This document shows positions 46,550 through 53,987 of a DNA stretch of 53,987 nt, in pieces; positions within the stretch are counted from its first letter, which is position 1, and the number at the start of each line of letters is the position of its first letter. The stretch is taken from positions 1 through 53,987 of the forward strand of contig NZ_JAOART010000100.1 of assembly GCF_025210435.1 (NCBI RefSeq). Reading direction: 5' to 3'. Source of the stretch: Anaeromicrobium sp. Its GTDB lineage: Bacteria > Bacillota > Clostridia > Peptostreptococcales > Thermotaleaceae. The translations under genes were made by a program, and so were the position numbers. The notes beneath the pieces were generated by a model, which saw only the letters and a list, made by a program, of their open reading frames with translations, searched no databases and was not told where the DNA came from.

Positions 46550-46915
46550 ATGTTGAGTTTATTTACTACTGTATCTATTGTTATGATTAAACCACTGTAT
46601 ATGCTTGTTTCATATGTATCAAGTAATAATTCTTTTCCTACTCCACTTACATCAGAAGAAGAAAATGAATATTTACAAAAATACGAAGAAGGAGATGAAG
46701 AGGCAAAAAATGTTTTAGTGGAAAGGAACTTAAGGTTAGTTGCACACATTGTGAAAAAATACCACAATACGGGACGAGAAATGGATGATCTTATTTCTAT
46801 TGGTACTATTGGTTTGATAAAAGCTATAACTTCTTTTGATAGGAATAAGGGTACTAGATTGGCTACTTATGCTGCTAGATGTATAGAAAATGCTATACTT
46901 ATTTAATGGAAACAT
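46550..46915 (+). CDS. sigK: Sigma-K, N-terminal part (gene split by an intervening element)
   Basis: Residues 1-114 are clearly sigma-K: a hydrophobic pro-sequence-like N-terminus, [35 protein letters not shown] (region 2.2-2.3) and [14 protein letters not shown]. After codon 114 the homology ends abruptly. The frame runs only AILI before a stop inside foreign sequence. The continuation EILM starts at 49465, 2,576 bp away. ATG at 46550 fits AGGAGG 11 bp upstream. The product as it stands would be inactive. Confidence 0.93.
46880..46905. other. Left attachment junction (sigK N-half / element)
   Basis: sigK TGTATAGA-AATG-CTATACTTATTTAA element. ATACT here is the complement of AGTAT at the other end of the element. 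Confidence 0.75.
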
Positions 46916-46928
46916 TAAGAAGAAATAT

Positions 46929-46964
46929 AAAAAAGGATTGGAGATTTTATTTCCAATCCTTTTT
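46929..46964. terminator. Bidirectional terminator at the recombinase 3' end
   Basis: AAAAAGGATTGGA and TCCAATCCTTTTT form the stem. It serves the recombinase on the minus strand and stops sigK transcripts on the plus strand. Confidence 0.85.
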
Positions 46965-46965
46965 A

Positions 46966-48597
46966 CATGAACCTTTTTTTTTTAGTAGAGCCTACAAAAA
47001 CTACTTCTACCGTATTTCCGTCCCAAATTACTTTTTCTATTAAACTATTGATCAAGTCAGTTTTTTCCACATTACTCAATAAATCTATTAATTTATGAAA
47101 ATTTCCTAGGGTATTTACTAAATGGCCAATATTAAATTTACTCGATTGCGTATTTAATTTGTTGTATAAGATTTTATACTTACATTCTAATTCATTCAGG
47201 TCTTCCTCCAAAGTTTTTATTTCTTTAAAAATATATTTTTTAATGGATTCTTCTTCAGTGTAGGATATGGATTGGACTAATTGTTGTATTTGGAACTTCT
47301 TTTTTTCTATAATTTTTTTTAATAGATTTAAATTAGAATTCTTTTTTGTCCTAGTAAAGGTAAAGTCACTTTTGCCCACTGCATCCATGAAGATTGGATT
47401 TTCTCGGAAATTATTTTTTATATTTTCTAATAAAGCTTTATCAAGTTCGTTACCTTGAATGTTTTTTATAGAACAATTGGACTTTTTACTTTTGATCTTA
47501 TTTTCACATATATAATAAAATGTTTTAAATCCATTTTTATTAGTTCTTCCAATCTTTGGTCTCATACGTGAACCACAGGTTTTGCAATATAAAATCCCAG
47601 ACAAAAGGGCCTGTGAAGATTTTCTACGTCTGAAGGATTTAAAAGTATTTTTAGAGAGTATATTTTGTACAGTGATCCATTTTTGACTAGGAATAATTCC
47701 ATCATGGGAACCTACCGTTATTACCCATTGGGACGGGTCTCTCAATTTAGGTCCATAATTTTTCTTTTGAATAGTTTTATTATAGGCCATAATACCGTGT
47801 TTGTTATTAAAGAGATTTCTAGATCCATAGACAGAATATTTATTTGTAATAAAATAAGCATAAATATTTGAGTCGGCCACAGCATAAACAGGATTAGATA
47901 ATATATTTCGCAAAGTTATGGGAGAAAAATTAATATTATTTTTACTTTTTATATTTTTGTCTATACAATATATTTCTAATTGGGTTAGAGACTTTAAATC
48001 TAAAAATTTATTAAAGATTAATCTTACAGTATAAATTTCCTTTGGAATAGATTCTAGAATATGAATTTTTCTTGTTTTATCTTTTTCATCTCTTATTGTT
48101 ACACATGTAGATTTAAATCCTGTTGGACATATTCCCCCTAACCAATGACCATCTTTGGCAAGTTGAAGCATATTATCTCTTATACGTTCACCTATAGTTT
48201 CCCGTTCTAGTTGGGCGAAAACACTGGCTATATACATCATTGCACGTCCCATTGGTGTAGAGGTATCAAAATTTTCTTTAATGGATATGAAGGATATATT
48301 ATAATTACTTAACTCTTCAATGAGAAATGAAAAGTCAGCTACATTTCTACTGATTCGATCTAGTCTATAGCATATTATCATATTAAATGATTTTAATTTA
48401 GCATCCAATAGCATTTTTTGAAATTCAGGCCTATCCATGGAACCACCTGAAAAACCTTCATCCTCATATATTATAAAATCCCTATTAGATAGATGGAAAG
48501 TGTTAATAGCATATTCTTTACATAGTTGTATTTGATTCTCTACAGAATCGCCTATACCTGTAAATTTAGACTTCCTTGAATATATGGCACACTTCAT
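46966..48597 (-). CDS. Large serine recombinase of the sigK element (SpoIVCA-like)
   Basis: This large serine recombinase has about 544 residues. The N-terminal resolvase domain begins MKCAIYSRKS (catalytic Ser10 by alignment with the RVS motif of SpoIVCA) and has YRLDRISRN plus the long GRAMMYIASVFAQLERET helix. A recombinase domain, a zinc ribbon (CKTCGSRMRP with a later CENK...C pair) and a coiled-coil motif follow. It is predicted to excise the element during sporulation. Its 3' end lies about 75 bp from the left junction. Start after AAAGGTG. Confidence 0.92.
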
Positions 48598-48721
48598 AAT
48601 ATCACCTTTAATTATAAGTATTAAGTAATATATGGATTTATTATTATTTTAGATAATTAGTCCAAGTCATATTGAATAAATTTAAAATAGAGGGAAGATT
48701 TTTTTAGAAGGAGGATGGGAA

Positions 48722-48907
48722 ATGATTGTAAAAATCCATATACCAAGGGATCATGAAGGAATAGATATATTAAAGACATGTATTACTACTACTCACAAAA
48801 GGATAATTAGAAATTATATAGATGAATTGGAAATTAGTGAAGATAAAAAGGAAATGATATGTGAAAAATTGAGAGAAAATAAGAAAGGGGAAAAATATTC
48901 ATATTAA
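48722..48907 (+). CDS. Small charged protein in the sigK element, divergent from the recombinase
   Basis: The 61-residue acidic/basic protein (MIVKIHIPRDHEGIDILKTC start) has a strong GAAGGAGG ribosome-binding site. It is read divergently from the recombinase across 124 bp. No family is recognised. Its position makes it a candidate recombination directionality factor, like SkrA or CD1234 in other skin elements, but no homology was seen. Confidence 0.65.
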   Translation: MIVKIHIPRDHEGIDILKTCITTTHKRIIRNYIDELEISEDKKEMICEKLRENKKGEKYSY

Positions 48908-48999
48908 AAAAAGTATAATTACTATTATAAAACTCGCATATAAGATATAAGTCATACATACAATGATATTAACTATCTATTAATTAGGGAAGGTGAATT

Positions 49000-49131
49000 A
49001 TGATGGACAAGTATATTGTGGAAATTACTAATGGAGTAATAGAAATGAGCCTAAATACAGATATGGTTGCTTCTGAATTAATAATTCAAGGAAAAGAGAT
49101 AATGGAAGATGTGATAGATGATAGAAATTAG
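49000..49131 (+). CDS. Small acidic protein in the sigK element
   Basis: The 43-residue ORF (MMDKYIVEITNGVIEMSLNT) is preceded by GGGAAGGTG with proper spacing and two adjacent ATGs. Acidic with no recognised domain. It is a credible short gene and a second candidate directionality factor. Confidence 0.55.
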   Translation: MMDKYIVEITNGVIEMSLNTDMVASELIIQGKEIMEDVIDDRN

Positions 49132-49219
49132 AATATGATTAAAGCATATTTTTCTTTACTTATTAGTTTTTTCAAAGTAATATATTTTATATAGTACTTT
49201 GGAAAAAGGGAGGAAAAAT

Positions 49220-49432
49220 ATGTTTTTTTATTTTAGAAACAAAAATAAAAAAATAAGTTATCTTAGAAAAAATATGTCATACACTGTAAAGGAGTTGGCA
49301 TTAAAATTAAAGGTCGATGATTGTATAGTATTTAGGATAGATAACTTAAAATTAAAAGAAGTGGATAAGAAATTAAGAGAAAGATTAATTCCTATTTTTA
49401 GGGGTGATATGTACGATAACATACCATGGTAA
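49220..49432 (+). CDS. Small helix-turn-helix-like protein at the element's right end
   Basis: The 70-residue basic protein has SYTVKELALKLKVDDCIVFR, which reads as a helix-turn-helix, and a conserved-looking end FRGDMYDNIPW. ATG at 49220 follows GGGAGG; a TTG at 49199 is rejected as it includes the ribosome-binding site. It may regulate the recombinase or excision. It ends 32 bp before the right junction. Confidence 0.65.
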   Translation: MFFYFRNKNKKISYLRKNMSYTVKELALKLKVDDCIVFRIDNLKLKEVDKKLRERLIPIFRGDMYDNIPW

Positions 49433-49446
49433 TTTTATAAAGTAGC

Positions 49447-49470
49447 ATTAAGTTTAGTATTCCTAATGAA
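49447..49470. other. Right attachment junction (element / sigK C-half)
   Basis: Element ATTAAGTTTAGTATTCCT, then AATG, then sigK AAATATTAATG. AGTAT (49456-49460) mirrors ATACT at the left end. Confidence 0.75.
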
Positions 49471-49584
49471 ATATTAATGACAATAAGGTCTGGTAAGAAA
49501 ACTAAAAGTGAGGTATCACTACAAGACCCTATAGGAATTGATAAAGAGGGCAACGAATTATCATTAACTATTTATCAAAATTAA
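49465..49584 (+). pseudogene. sigK: Sigma-K internal fragment (codons following the split), truncated
   Basis: The reading [12 protein letters not shown] then [20 protein letters not shown] matches the part of sigma-K just after CIEN (the B. subtilis equivalent is EILMHLRA...VSLHDPIG...GNEISLID). After NELSL the homology stops and the frame ends TIYQN. Regions 3.1-4, needed for promoter -35 binding, are missing here. Rejoined to the 5' part it gives only about 152 residues versus about 230 in sigma-K. A second insertion at this point or a deletion explains it. Confidence 0.85.
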
Positions 49585-49625
49585 AGGGGTGATTATTTAT
49601 TAATAAAAAAACTATAAGAGATGTT

Positions 49626-50948
49626 TTGAACCTAGCACTACCAGCTGTAGGAGAAATGATCTTATACATGTTAATATGGATATGTGATACTATGATGATC
49701 GGAAAATATGGAGGCAAACTTACCGTAACAGCAGTTGGGCTCAGTGCTCAAATAATATATACTTTTATAGGTATATTTGTTGGCAATGGAATAAGTGTTG
49801 GGGTTACATCCCTAGTAGCTAGAAATGTGGGGGCCAAGAATTATAAAAGAGCTGAGGAATATGCATCTGTAAGTTTGCATATAACCTTATTTTTAAGTAT
49901 TGTAGTGTCCATATTATTTTTTGTTTTTGCGAAGGAAATCCTCCTAATAGCTGGAGCAACTGGAGAAGTTGTAATCTTAGGGACAAGCTATATAAAAATA
50001 TGTTCTGTACAAATATTTTTTTATATGATGAGAAATAATTTAAATGGAGTTTTAAGAGGTCAGGGAGATACGAAGACACCCTTGTATTCATCTATTATAA
50101 TAAATGTGATAAATATAGGATTAGACTGGATTTTAATTTTTGGAAGATTTGGTTTCAAAGAAATGGGAGTAGAGGGTGCAGCTGTGGCCACTTCAGTAGC
50201 CAGTGTCATTGGCTTTGTATTTACATTACTACATATTAGAAATAAAGAATACATAAAACCGGAAATTAATTCAATATTAAAGATGAATTTAAAGAGAGGT
50301 AAAGAGTTGATGAAACTATCAATTCCTGCCAGCTTACAAGAGGCAAGTTTTAGTATTGCTAGATTAATAAATACTTTTATGATAATGATTTTAGGGAATG
50401 TGGCATTTTCGGCTAATGAAATTACAGTAAGCATAGAATCACTATCTTTCATGCCAGGGTGGGGATTTGCTGTAGCCTCTACTACTTTAGTAGGACAAAA
50501 AATAGGTGAAAATAGATATGATAAAGCAAGAGAATACGCCAATACATCTATTATACTAAGTGCAGGGGTAATGGGAGTATGTTCCTGTATATTCATTTTA
50601 TTTCCAAGTAATCTTATACAGATGTTTATTAAAAGCTCAGAAACAGAAGTCATAAGATTAGGAACCATATGTTTAATGATTGCTTCAATAGAACAGATTC
50701 CAATGGCCATATCAATGACTACTGAAGGAATTCTAAAGGGAATAGGTGATACGAAGAATCCATTTATAGTGGCATTAATTACCAATTGGTTAATAAGATT
50801 GCCTTTAATGTATTATTTTATAGCTATAAAGAAAAGTTCAATAACTTATGTTTGGTGGATAACATCTATTCAATGGATACTTCAAGGGGGGATTATTTAT
50901 ATGATATATAAGTATAAATTTGACAAGATGCTAAAAAAATCTAAGTAG
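49626..50948 (+). CDS. MATE-family efflux transporter
   Basis: The MATE protein of about 440 residues has twelve predicted membrane helices, with LPAVGEMILYMLIWICDTM at the start and the repeated GxGxx(T/S)xxxQ-type motifs (VGVTSLVARNVG, VASTTLVGQKIG). It exports cations or drugs against a sodium or proton gradient. TTG at 49626 is the nearest classical start, but the frame continues upstream to an ATT at 49599 (INKKTIRDVL) placed 7 bp after GGGGTG, which may be the real start. It lies directly after the broken sigK piece. Confidence 0.88.
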   Translation: MNLALPAVGEMILYMLIWICDTMMIGKYGGKLTVTAVGLSAQIIYTFIGIFVGNGISVGVTSLVARNVGAKNYKRAEEYASVSLHITLFLSIVVSILFFVFAKEILLIAGATGEVVILGTSYIKICSVQIFFYMMRNNLNGVLRGQGDTKTPLYSSIIINVINIGLDWILIFGRFGFKEMGVEGAAVATSVASVIGFVFTLLHIRNKEYIKPEINSILKMNLKRGKELMKLSIPASLQEASFSIARLINTFMIMILGNVAFSANEITVSIESLSFMPGWGFAVASTTLVGQKIGENRYDKAREYANTSIILSAGVMGVCSCIFILFPSNLIQMFIKSSETEVIRLGTICLMIASIEQIPMAISMTTEGILKGIGDTKNPFIVALITNWLIRLPLMYYFIAIKKSSITYVWWITSIQWILQGGIIYMIYKYKFDKMLKKSK

Positions 50949-50954
50949 ACATAT

Positions 50955-52475
50955 CTAGCATCTTATCTTAGGATAGATTTTTAAAGTCACATTTTTTTTA
51001 TTAGGTTTGTAATAAGTGACCCTATACAAAAGGCTTTTAATAAATCTATTTTGTGATTCTATACTATTGGATAAAAAATAGTGGTCTATTAAATCTCTGT
51101 TGATAGATAAGTTGGTTTTTAGAGTATCCTTTAGTTTAATATATTCTTCTAGATGCATTTTACTTTTTGAAATTACATCCTTAATATGGAATTCTTTATT
51201 TTCTAAGAAGACCATTCTTTCTTCATATAATTGTTTATTATATATGTTTTTCTCAAAATAATCGTAAACTTTATTTTTCTGTAAATGGAGCTCTCTTAAT
51301 AGGCGTTTATTAATATTAATTGAGTTAGTGTAAAGGGAAATAGATGAATTTAGATCATCTAATAAATCCTTTTCCATATGAATGTTTATATGATAATTTG
51401 AAAAGTATTTTTTTAAATTATCAATTAGAGATTTTTCAACTAATTTAAATTTGCTACTTTTATTACCACATTTATTAGTACAGATTAGTTGAGATTCTCT
51501 ATCCTTATATGGTCTTAGTACCATTTTTTTATTACATACTTCACAAAATATTATACCTGCTAAGGGATTTTTCAAATGCCTTTTCCCGGGAACAGGTGAG
51601 TTTCTTCTGTTAACTAATATGGATTGAGCCTTTTTATATATTTCCTCTGTTATTATGGCATCATGCTTTCCATCAACAATCATCCAACTAGTTTTATCTT
51701 GAGAAACAACGTGCTTATTTCCAAGGGAATCTTTGTAAGTTCGAGTTTTCTTCCAAGTTATTTTACCTGTATATATGGGATTTTTCAGTATATTTAATAC
51801 GGAATAGTTATTCCAAGGCTTATTAGTGTTAGTTATATGACCTAGATCGTTCAGTCGTTGAGCTATTTTACTAGAACCTATAGATTCTGTAGTATACCAG
51901 TGAAATATTTTTTCTACAATTAAGGCTTCATTAGTTTTAGGAATTAAAAATCTATTCTCATCCTTTTCTTTTATAAAATAACCAAAGGGAGGATTTGGAG
52001 AAATATAATTACCCTCTAAAATAGATCGAATTCTACCTCGTTGCAATCTCCTAGTAATTAATTTTAACTCTTTTCTGGCCATGAAGGCTTCAAATTCACT
52101 ATATTCTTCATCAAATTCATTATTTAAATCATAGATTTTTCTTGGAGTAATTATTTTAGTATGGGATTTTTTAAATGTATCTAATATTAGACCTTGTTCT
52201 CTCATATTTCCTCTTCCTAAGCGATCGATGTCCATGCATAGTACTCCATAGTATATTTTCCTTTCTACTTCCTTTAAAAGATATAACATTTCAGTTCTAC
52301 TTACTAAACTATCCCCAGATACGATTTCTCTTTTTATGGATGTTACCATGTAATTCCCTTTATCAGCTAAATCAAGCAAAGTACTTTCATGTTTTCTTAA
52401 GGTTTCATTAGAAAGATTTTGTTCTAAATTTTCATCTGCTCTTGATTTTCTTAAATAGATACATACTTTTTTCAA
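50955..52475 (-). CDS. Second large serine recombinase
   Basis: This large serine recombinase has about 506 residues, starting LKKVCIYLRKS (catalytic Ser in RKS). It has CMDIDRLGRGNMREQG, the FEAFMARKELKLITRRL helix, a recombinase domain (NPPFGY...), a zinc ribbon (CEVCNKKM with CTNKCGNK) and a coiled coil. It is only distantly like the first one. The TTG start (52475) is chosen because GGGTG lies 6 bp upstream; GTG at 52484 lacks a site. Its attachment sites are not identified in the window. Confidence 0.9.
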   Translation of the reverse strand: MKKVCIYLRKSRADENLEQNLSNETLRKHESTLLDLADKGNYMVTSIKREIVSGDSLVSRTEMLYLLKEVERKIYYGVLCMDIDRLGRGNMREQGLILDTFKKSHTKIITPRKIYDLNNEFDEEYSEFEAFMARKELKLITRRLQRGRIRSILEGNYISPNPPFGYFIKEKDENRFLIPKTNEALIVEKIFHWYTTESIGSSKIAQRLNDLGHITNTNKPWNNYSVLNILKNPIYTGKITWKKTRTYKDSLGNKHVVSQDKTSWMIVDGKHDAIITEEIYKKAQSILVNRRNSPVPGKRHLKNPLAGIIFCEVCNKKMVLRPYKDRESQLICTNKCGNKSSKFKLVEKSLIDNLKKYFSNYHINIHMEKDLLDDLNSSISLYTNSININKRLLRELHLQKNKVYDYFEKNIYNKQLYEERMVFLENKEFHIKDVISKSKMHLEEYIKLKDTLKTNLSINRDLIDHYFLSNSIESQNRFIKSLLYRVTYYKPNKKNVTLKIYPKIRC

Positions 52476-52525
52476 TATAATCACCCATTTGAGTTTTGTT
52501 ATTAGAGTATATTTAATAGAAAGTG

Positions 52526-52559
52526 AATTTATTATTAACTATGAAAAATTTATTATTAA
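52526..52559. repeat. Pair of 13-bp direct repeats upstream of recombinase 2
   Basis: AATTTATTATTAA occurs at 52526-52538 and 52547-52559, start to start 21 bp, i.e. two helical turns. It lies between the divergent recombinase and small ORF, so it could be a regulator- or recombinase-binding site. A+T-rich sequence weakens it. Confidence 0.5.
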
Positions 52560-52603
52560 AATGAGTGTCTATGCATATTAAGTAATAAGGGGATGATACG
52601 TAT

Positions 52604-52735
52604 ATGAGCGAAAAGGTGAATATAATAATAGTTAAGCCTGTACTAAAAGATGATGAAATGGAGGAAATTGAAGGAGAAATTAAGAAAAGTATTATATCTA
52701 TTTTAAAAAAAGAGATAATTAATAAAAATAAATAA
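52604..52735 (+). CDS. Small charged protein divergent from recombinase 2
   Basis: The 43-residue ORF (MSEKVNIIIVKPVLKDDEME) has an AAGGGGATG-type site upstream. It stands divergent to the recombinase as the 61-residue ORF does to recombinase 1. Mixed-charge helix, no known family. Candidate accessory factor for the second recombinase. Confidence 0.55.
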   Translation: MSEKVNIIIVKPVLKDDEMEEIEGEIKKSIISILKKEIINKNK

Positions 52736-52791
52736 TTAAATTTATTAGCACATAGATGATATAAATAATATTATATAGCAGGGGTGGCAAA

Positions 52792-53700
52792 ATGCCAGAG
52801 AAAATAAAGAAAAAGTTAATTTATGGGCTAGTAGTGGTGTTTGTTGCTGTGACTGCATTTGGTACAAGCTTTTTCTATAAGAGTATTAGTGAAGAACAAA
52901 TACTAGATACTACTACTAAAACATTATATACAATTGGTAAGGATCAAGAAAATAGAATTTTAGAATTCTATGATAATGTTTTATATAATTTAAATTTAAT
53001 TGCACAGGGCTATTCTATATCAGGAATGAAATGTGACGATGTAAATAGAATTATAGAATATATTAATTTCAAAAACAGAGATATTTTTATGGATATATTT
53101 GTTATAGATAAGGAGTTTAATTTAATATATGGAAATAATTATGGACAAGAAAACTTTCATAATAATGAATGTATAAAGCATGCCTTAGGTGGAGATCTAA
53201 TTTTTGGAGAAATATTAAAAATAAAAAATAGCATATATACGGATGTGGCAATTCCAGTATATAGAGATGAAGAAGTAATTGGTACTATATATGCTAAGGT
53301 AGATTTAACATATCTGAATGATATAATGGCAAATTCTAAACTAATAGGAGAAGATGCAGAGAGTTTTATGTTAGATAGTGAAGGAATATTTGTTACTGAA
53401 TCCAGGTTTATTCCTAATGCTGTAGGGAAACAGAGTGCAAATATTGGAAAGATAAAATCATCAATAGATTATTCTAATAAGTTACCTTATAAAAATTATA
53501 GGGATGAGGAAGTTTATGGTATATATTTTACTATTCCTTACAACAAATTGACTTTAGTATTAGAGTACAATAATTTAAATATGAATGAGAAGAATAAGGA
53601 ACAAATAGAAAAGATTGGTGAATTGGCTGCCTTAGCAGAAGTGCTGGTTTTGGCAATTAGTAAGGTAGTTTACGAAAAGTTATATAAAAATGAAGAATAA
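52792..53700 (+). CDS. Orphan dCache-type extracellular sensor protein
   Basis: The 302-residue protein has an N-terminal membrane helix (about 9-30), a dCache/PAS-like outside domain (about 45-260, with DIFVIDKEFNLIYGN and MLDSEGIFVTES typical of Cache halves) and a second, weaker helix near 275-295. It lacks any kinase, HAMP, GGDEF or chemoreceptor signalling part. The stop and a terminator follow directly. It may be a stand-alone sensor or a truncated receptor. GGGGTGG ribosome-binding site. Confidence 0.75.
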   Translation: MPEKIKKKLIYGLVVVFVAVTAFGTSFFYKSISEEQILDTTTKTLYTIGKDQENRILEFYDNVLYNLNLIAQGYSISGMKCDDVNRIIEYINFKNRDIFMDIFVIDKEFNLIYGNNYGQENFHNNECIKHALGGDLIFGEILKIKNSIYTDVAIPVYRDEEVIGTIYAKVDLTYLNDIMANSKLIGEDAESFMLDSEGIFVTESRFIPNAVGKQSANIGKIKSSIDYSNKLPYKNYRDEEVYGIYFTIPYNKLTLVLEYNNLNMNEKNKEQIEKIGELAALAEVLVLAISKVVYEKLYKNEE

Positions 53701-53717
53701 TAGAAAATAGTTTTGGT

Positions 53718-53752
53718 GCAAGGTGGTTCTAAAAAATAGAACCACCTTAATT
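53718..53752. terminator. Terminator after the dCache gene
   Basis: CAAGGTGGTTCTA and TAGAACCACCTTAA form a stem, with TTTAATT after it. Confidence 0.8.
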
Positions 53753-53753
53753 T

Positions 53754-53987
53754 AATTCTTTTGAGTTATAGGTACATTATCTTTAAAAGTAATGCTAAAA
53801 ATACAAAAGAAAAGATAGAAAGTTTGAAGTTTTTTTGTTTCATCTTTTTCCGTTACCAAAAATCTATAAAAATCTACAAATTAAAGATTTTGTTTCTTTC
53901 CTACTTCATAATGTCCCATTTTGCCGAAGCTACTTTGGTTTGCTATAACACTCCATAGGCTTTGCTACTTTTCAGTAGTGGGTTGTA
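53754..53987. other. Unassigned right edge with hairpin
   Basis: No convincing gene is seen. The last 60 bases are less A+T-rich than the surroundings and contain CTACT-TTTC-AGTAG plus two CTACTTT units (GAAGCTACTTTGG and TTGCTACTTTTC). This resembles the edge of another dispersed repeat or mobile element cut by the window end. Confidence 0.3.

Follow-up and report, generated by a model that had tools for sequence, protein, structure and literature searches.

A probable double interruption of sigK by recombinase-bearing elements in Anaeromicrobium sp. and its relatives

Known elements in sporulation genes and the Anaeromicrobium locus

In Bacillus subtilis, the skin element is described as leaving sigK, the gene for sigma-K, by sporulation-controlled excision that involves the large serine recombinase (LSR) SpoIVCA and the 64-amino-acid recombination directionality factor (RDF) Skr, encoded adjoining it (PMC6957869). 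For the skinCd element of C. difficile, the 5' piece of sigK is reported to end 404 bp after the start codon and the RDF, CD1234, to be under the control of both sigma-E and SpoIIID (PMC5025042), and the B. subtilis and C. difficile elements are reported to occupy different sites in the gene (Serrano 2016; PMC6957869). An account of Bacillus cereus biovar anthracis places a 22-kb island at sigK nucleotide 195, from which it is excised during sporulation (PMC10745906). Outside sigK, the small, non-prophage gin element in gerE of B. cereus is described as using a recombinase and a 6.5-kDa RDF (GirC/GirX) to rebuild a mother-cell gene (PMC5595907), and the SPbeta integrase SprA/YokA, with SprB, as effecting a developmental excision from spsM (PMC4191935). 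Here, we studied sigK in a window of 53,987 nt, which is the whole of contig NZ_JAOART010000100.1 of the Anaeromicrobium sp. assembly GCF_025210435.1 (genome G000), and in which an earlier note had described sigK as apparently broken twice.

The two breaks lie 29 codons apart, site 1 between IEN and EIL and site 2 between GN and EISL. We take the B. subtilis skin element to use site 1. Like skin, the window has within sigK an LSR element with a small candidate RDF nearby, but skin as described is a single interruption in which Skr overlaps the start of spoIVCA, whereas the RDF1 candidates of the window are separate open reading frames (ORFs) (PMC6957869). The position given for skinCd (CD1231 with CD1234) fits site 2 and not site 1 by arithmetic, and skinCd also has a serine recombinase (PMC5025042); that account, too, presents a single interruption, whereas in the window one at this position is found together with another at site 1. 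The island of B. cereus biovar anthracis resembles the window elements in lying in sigK and differs, as described, in being a single interruption at yet another site, and gin shares with them its small size and non-prophage nature, although it is reported as the only interruption of a different gene. SPbeta provides the nearest solved relative of the second window recombinase, LSR2 (YokA, E 1.1e-36), and differs as a full prophage with another attachment (att) site. What is new against these systems is the interruption of both sigK sites at once; each site alone is of a kind already known. In the full-text literature, with subscription journals and bioRxiv outside the search, we found no earlier account of two elements in one sigK or of an inversion within the gene.

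Pieces of sigK in the window and in relatives

The sigK gene of the window probably consists of three exons, between which lie two independent gene-intervening elements that each encode a recombinase, such that two excisions would rebuild sigma-K. As the earlier note stated, the N-terminal piece runs to 46891, the sigma-K match resumes at 49468 and ends again after GNELSL, from where the frame reads TIYQN and then a stop. No sigK C-terminal sequence was found between 49568 and 53987. The MATE gene, second large serine recombinase, small ORF, and sensor that the note placed after the middle piece are all present. Piece 1 ends at IEN, with its reading frame continuing into element 1, and both flanks of that element encode sigma-K and lie inside the window. 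In G001, which besides G000 is the sole representative of the genus in our set, the right flank of element 2 is complete; the window contig does not contain it. This contig ends at 53987, and its final ~140 bases recur at five further places in G000, of which the copy on contig C15 continues into a TnpB-like zinc-finger coding end. Window positions 53601-53851 can be aligned to G001 up to ~115 bases before the start of the C-terminal sigK piece; thus, the window contig breaks just short of that piece.

Chance is an unlikely source of this arrangement, as G001 has an identical locus layout, with the N-terminal piece, element 1, the 29-codon middle piece, element 2, and the C-terminal piece in order on a single 590-kb contig. 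The three-piece layout is also complete and collinear on single contigs of G016 (4.59 Mb) and G043, and these three layouts support the tandem arrangement that the note proposed, in which each of two elements has a recombinase to itself. When the pieces of relatives are joined at sigK codons 114/115 and 143/144, the frame is open in all six other doubly split genomes, from three families, and encodes 232-245 amino acids (G001 from residue 7). Between G000 and G001, piece 1 is 95% identical in amino acids, with a ratio of non-synonymous to synonymous substitution rates (dN/dS) of 0.076 (such values for this genome pair come from a counting script specific to this analysis), and the middle piece has six synonymous and no non-synonymous changes over the 31 codons compared. 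Judged by these substitutions, the sigK pieces are under purifying selection between the two genomes.

The alternative that the note had kept in reserve, a degenerate sigK with an intact copy elsewhere, lacks its second half: no uninterrupted sigK was found in the 93%-complete genome, and searches of it that used Sigma70_r2, Sigma70_r4, and a protein query from the C-terminus found no second sigma-K-like protein. Matches to regions 2 and 4 that were considered as a complete sigK were set aside as not sigma-K-like, the proteins on contigs C143, C49, C109, and C17 having been examined and the others judged from identities only. The gene for SpoIIID is present in G000.

We mapped 30 genomes, chosen mostly for a broken sigK, so that the counts are not frequencies. 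A doubly split sigK occurs in at least seven of them, in three families, and this number is a lower bound because only the best matches of a 394-genome search with 118 C-terminal amino acids (165 matched) were considered, which omits matches to the middle piece alone. Among the 17 genomes examined from the window's family (G000-G016), 15 have sigK, which is intact in one (G006), broken at site 1 only in seven (G004, G005, G008, G009, G012, G013, and G015), at site 2 only in two (G003 and G007), at both sites in four (G000, G001, G011, and G016), and at a third site only in one (G010). No sigK match was found in G002, which is 68% complete, or in G014, which is 91% complete and was searched with N-terminal and C-terminal sequences and a pattern; in G014, this is either loss or an assembly gap. 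Outside the family, both sites are broken in G021 and G043 (family f6) and in G050 (family f3), and in G011 and G050 the sigK pieces are spread over two contigs. Among 80 named loci, 68 are intact, eight are broken at site 1, and four at site 2 (with L127, which ends at residue 159, counted under site 2); those broken at site 2 include Peribacillus and Pelosinus. As L125 is probably a repeat of G011, and L128 of G078, these counts are not fully independent. What looked like a fourth break in G046 and G112 (near codon 184) and in G308 (near codon 154) is a contig end in each case and was rejected.

Some relatives depart from the collinear arrangement. In G032 (L116 3484-6189) and G021 (L115 1717-11498), which belong to one family, the downstream sigK pieces stand head to head with the N-terminal piece, with a site-1 recombinase between; because the pieces face each other, restoration would need inversion in G032 and inversion plus one excision in G021. 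Extra copies of the sigK 3' end with site-2 right-end sequence were seen in G013 (L104 12367-12639) and G119 (L222 18045-18278), 22-35 kb downstream of an already complete middle plus C-terminal piece, the G119 copy being decayed. Both copies resemble remnants of an earlier double split and were not counted as site-2 breaks, no LSR2 having been found between. In G112 (L237/L238, C220 end and C332), site 2 is rejoined at one contig end, and another contig has a recombinase adjoining the C-terminal piece. This pair may reflect excision in nature, for a single site and in a different family; a second copy of sigK or a mixed culture would give the same picture.

Recombinases, attachment sites, and candidate directionality factors

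Each site has its own type of recombinase. Among five seeds, the best match of the full-length recombinases is the window's LSR1 in 17 of 17 site-1 elements and LSR2 in 15 of 15 site-2 elements, and, in the named loci, the type fits the site at six of eight site-1 breaks (the other two have no LSR in the DNA examined) and all four site-2 breaks. For G078 and G103, no LSR was found in the stretches examined, the N-terminal piece lying outside those stretches. In a tree of 48 sequences, which carries a long-branch warning, 19 site-2 recombinases form one group (support 100/100), with those of family f4 genomes inside it, and 22 site-1 recombinases group (100/99) together with two more from the site-1 elements of G005 and G012. 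A 214-amino-acid recombinase fragment of G004 was excluded from the LSR counts and the tree and L125 from the tree; the recombinase and RDF1 of G119 are near-copies of those of G050. Between G000 and G001, the two recombinases are 83% and 82% identical (dN/dS 0.14-0.18).

A short core at both ends of each element would restore the frame: AATG at site 1 and, at site 2, the block at 49555-49567, of which 12 of 13 bases recur at the C-terminal piece of G001 as GAA(T/A)TATCATTAA. AATGA or a close variant occurs in each of the two cores. The element-side arms differ: site 1 has GGAAACAT, whose inverted counterpart is most distinct in G050, and site 2 has TTATCAA / TTGATAA. Thermoanaerobacterium phage THSA-485A (L246/L247) has an integrase 47% identical to LSR2 and a palindrome around AATGAG at its record ends; the TTGATAA arms are absent there, and use of sigK site 2 by this phage is not supported.

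Element 1 contains a minus-strand recombinase and three small ORFs, and neither it nor the window part of element 2, with its recombinase, small ORF, MATE transporter, and sensor, has phage structural genes. The sensor (52792-53700) has no Pfam domain besides dCache. A look-alike of the 70-amino-acid ORF at 49220-49432, in the opposite orientation, was seen by eye in the site-1 element of G131 (L228 3385-5425). A 58-amino-acid ORF (..FPLWIAQNKHKILIYD..) occurs in the site-1 elements of G015 (L105) and G016 (L100) and in the site-2 element of G007 (L099), as if cargo were exchanged between the two kinds of element.

Each element probably carries its own small directionality factor. The 2.2-kb site-1 element of G009 has, besides the recombinase, only one ORF of at least 32 amino acids with a ribosome-binding site. 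A hidden Markov model (HMM) of four such ORFs, built without G000 and G001, ranks window frame 48722-48907 first of 630 (E 2.6e-5; 1.7e-8 with more members). The 16 RDF1-type matches with E < 0.01 are all found beside site-1 breaks, on the element side, and the 16 RDF2-type matches likewise beside site-2 breaks, one of them near the leftover C-terminal copy in G013. RDF2-type ORFs go with site-2 elements in families f1, f3, f4, and f6, all four of the window's order, and in named loci of Anaeromonas, Tepidimicrobium, Peribacillus, and Pelosinus. The RDF2 candidate of the window (52604-52735) is 76% identical to its G001 counterpart in amino acids, with a dN/dS of 0.25.

Upstream regions of the candidate RDF ORFs yielded the promoter pattern ATA(G/A)(T/G)ACAAA-N8-13-CATA, which resembles a sigma-E promoter with a SpoIIID-like site between its boxes. 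It has 20 matches in 41 loci (527,175 bp, both strands) and 0-3 in each of five Markov shuffles. Nineteen matches lie 26-61 nt before an ORF of 54-77 amino acids of the RDF families (10 RDF1-type and nine RDF2-type); eight of the 19 had suggested the pattern and 11 are new, one of these (G119) being a near-copy of G050. In the doubly split G016 and G050, both the RDF1- and the RDF2-type gene carry this module. Among the small ORFs of the window, only the 43-amino-acid ORF at 49000 has a near-perfect sigma-E-like promoter (48936-48964), which none of 300 shuffles equalled; its G001 counterpart scores 10.5/12, with 0.043 of shuffles as good.

Table 1. Features of the split sigK locus in genome G000 (window coordinates unless a contig is named)
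Feature	Position	Strand	Remarks
sigK piece 1 (to codon 114 of G006 sigma-K)	46550..46891	+	TIGR02846 sigma-K, E 6.2e-53
Site-1 left att core AATG	46889..46892	+	Shared with 49465-49468; same place in relatives
Element 1, ~2.58 kb core to core	46893..49464	.	Collinear with G001 element (2.66 kb)
LSR1, large serine recombinase, 544 amino acids, site-1 type	46963..48597	-	PF00239, PF07508, PF13408; groups with site-1 recombinases
RDF1, candidate recombination directionality factor, 61 amino acids	48722..48907	+	HMM match
Sigma-E-like promoter GCATATA-N14-CATACAAT	48936..48964	+	Score 11.5/12
43-amino-acid ORF downstream of the sigma-E-like promoter, rival RDF1 candidate	49000..49131	+	dN/dS 0.44
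70-amino-acid ORF of element 1	49220..49432	+	90% identity to G001, dN/dS 0.083
Site-1 right att core AATG	49465..49468	+	Shared with left core
sigK piece 2, 29 codons	49468..49554	+	Query residues 112-147 matched at 86%
Site-2 left att core block GAATTATCATTAA	49555..49567	+	12/13 bases shared with G001 C-terminal piece
Element 2, portion within window	49568..53846	.	Right end interrupted by insertion sequence; homologous to G001 to ~53851
Element-side att arm TTTATCAA	49571..49578	+	Recurs in site-2 elements
MATE-family transporter, element 2 cargo	49626..50948	+	PF01554, E 9.9e-64; dN/dS 0.097
LSR2, large serine recombinase, 509 amino acids, site-2 type	50955..52484	-	PF07508, PF00239
RDF2, weak candidate directionality factor, 43 amino acids	52604..52735	+	Best window frame, yet E 0.2
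dCache sensor without output domain, cargo	52792..53700	+	PF02743, E 5.7e-16; dN/dS 0.115
TnpB-type insertion sequence end	53847..53987	.	Six places in genome; contig stops inside
Integrative and conjugative element (ICE)-like element	C107:11144-18496 (L209)		Same insertion codon as G010 C24/C32 (L233, L245)

Two proposed excisions, their rivals, and a third insertion

The sequence itself provides the pieces, the shared cores, the in-frame joins in relatives, the site-specific families of recombinases and small ORFs, and the purifying selection that acts on the pieces of sigK. We infer that both excisions occur and are required, that they take place in the mother cell, and that the candidate RDFs act as such. 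There, each recombinase and its partner factor would recombine the attL and attR of their own element, and once both elements had been excised, whichever left first, the sigma-K frame would again be open. Since both excisions would be needed for that frame, sigma-K would depend on two recombination events, an AND gate, and one sigma-E/SpoIIID-like promoter common to the directionality genes of both sites, as in relatives, would synchronise them. On balance, we favor such a gate, of two separately catalysed excisions under a common mother-cell promoter. It would have come about through the filling of both att sites in three or more families of the window's order, with an extension in the window strain to a third break borne by an ICE-like element.

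This third break lies near the 3' end of sigK. A DNA search of G000 with the G001 right flank located the last 28 sigK codons at C107:18497, whereas a protein search of the genome did not find the C-terminal piece. The C-terminal sequence whose absence downstream would, by the earlier note, refute its reading is missing from the window contig, but its last 28 codons are present on another, behind the third insertion, of which the window gave the note no sign. The gene after them matches G001 from L098:10859 onward; for the G001 gene between the sigK end and that position, no ortholog was found in G000. The codons are preceded by the ICE-like element, which has three tandem serine recombinases (C107:11144-16004). 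The same element occupies the same codon in G010, of another genus of the family, where sigK is open to GISRSY and then gives way to element genes, with the right end of the element on a separate contig and recombinases ~91% identical to those on C107. A further insertion site in region 4, between GISRS and YVSRIEK, is therefore occupied by an ICE-like element in two genera.

Several observations weigh against the two-excision reading. Excision was not seen in any doubly split genome, and in G021 inversion would be needed as well. The dN/dS of RDF1 is ~1, which speaks against strong constraint on it; the RDF2 homology is weak in the window (E 0.2), and the RDF2 of G001 is absent from the match list. 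At E < 0.01, RDF1 was not found in G021, G032, G043, G131, L141, and L148, or RDF2 in G066, G116, and G112. The shared promoter module has no match in G000 and G001, and a good sigma-E-like promoter for the window RDF1 (48722) and RDF2 (52604) was not supported, with 0.97 and 0.81 of shuffles as good. The inverted att arms of element 1 in the window are weak (19/45 positions). Further, ~210 bp of sigK, by comparison with G001, are absent from the G000 assembly, and the third insertion separates off the last 28 codons, so the window strain might not make sigma-K.

If the elements were instead accidents of mobile DNA, both would have inserted and left a dead sigK, either throughout these lineages or just in the window strain, with sporulation incomplete. 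The ICE-like insertion, the insertion sequence in element 2 of G000, and the lack of a sigK match in G002 and G014 would fit, but those two genomes are incomplete, both sigK pieces are under apparent purifying selection between G000 and G001, the recombinases are conserved, and the joined frames are open in every other doubly split genome; we regard this explanation as unlikely. It is also quite unlikely that only one element leaves during sporulation, the other being newer, still mobile, and restoring sigK only when permanently lost. Differing element sizes and cargo, relatives with either site alone, and related integrases in phages would suit such a history, whereas the doubly split state common to two species of one genus, with both recombinases similarly conserved (83% and 82% identity, dN/dS 0.14-0.18), and the RDF genes of both sites under one promoter module in G016 and G050 argue against it. 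A composite excision, in which the site-1 left end recombines with the site-2 right end and the middle piece is lost in a single event along with the two elements, is suggested by AATGA-like cores in the same frame at both att sites and is highly improbable, given a middle piece without amino-acid change between G000 and G001 and element-side arms and recombinases that differ by site.

It has long been asked whether skin elements act as parasites or as timing devices. With sigK split by two elements beside relatives with one or none, these bacteria would offer a natural series for the value of each excision step. Pairs of a site-specific recombinase and its RDF are candidates for orthogonal recombination modules. 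Directionality factors are difficult to identify by homology, and the shared promoter gives a sequence signature by which they can be sought.

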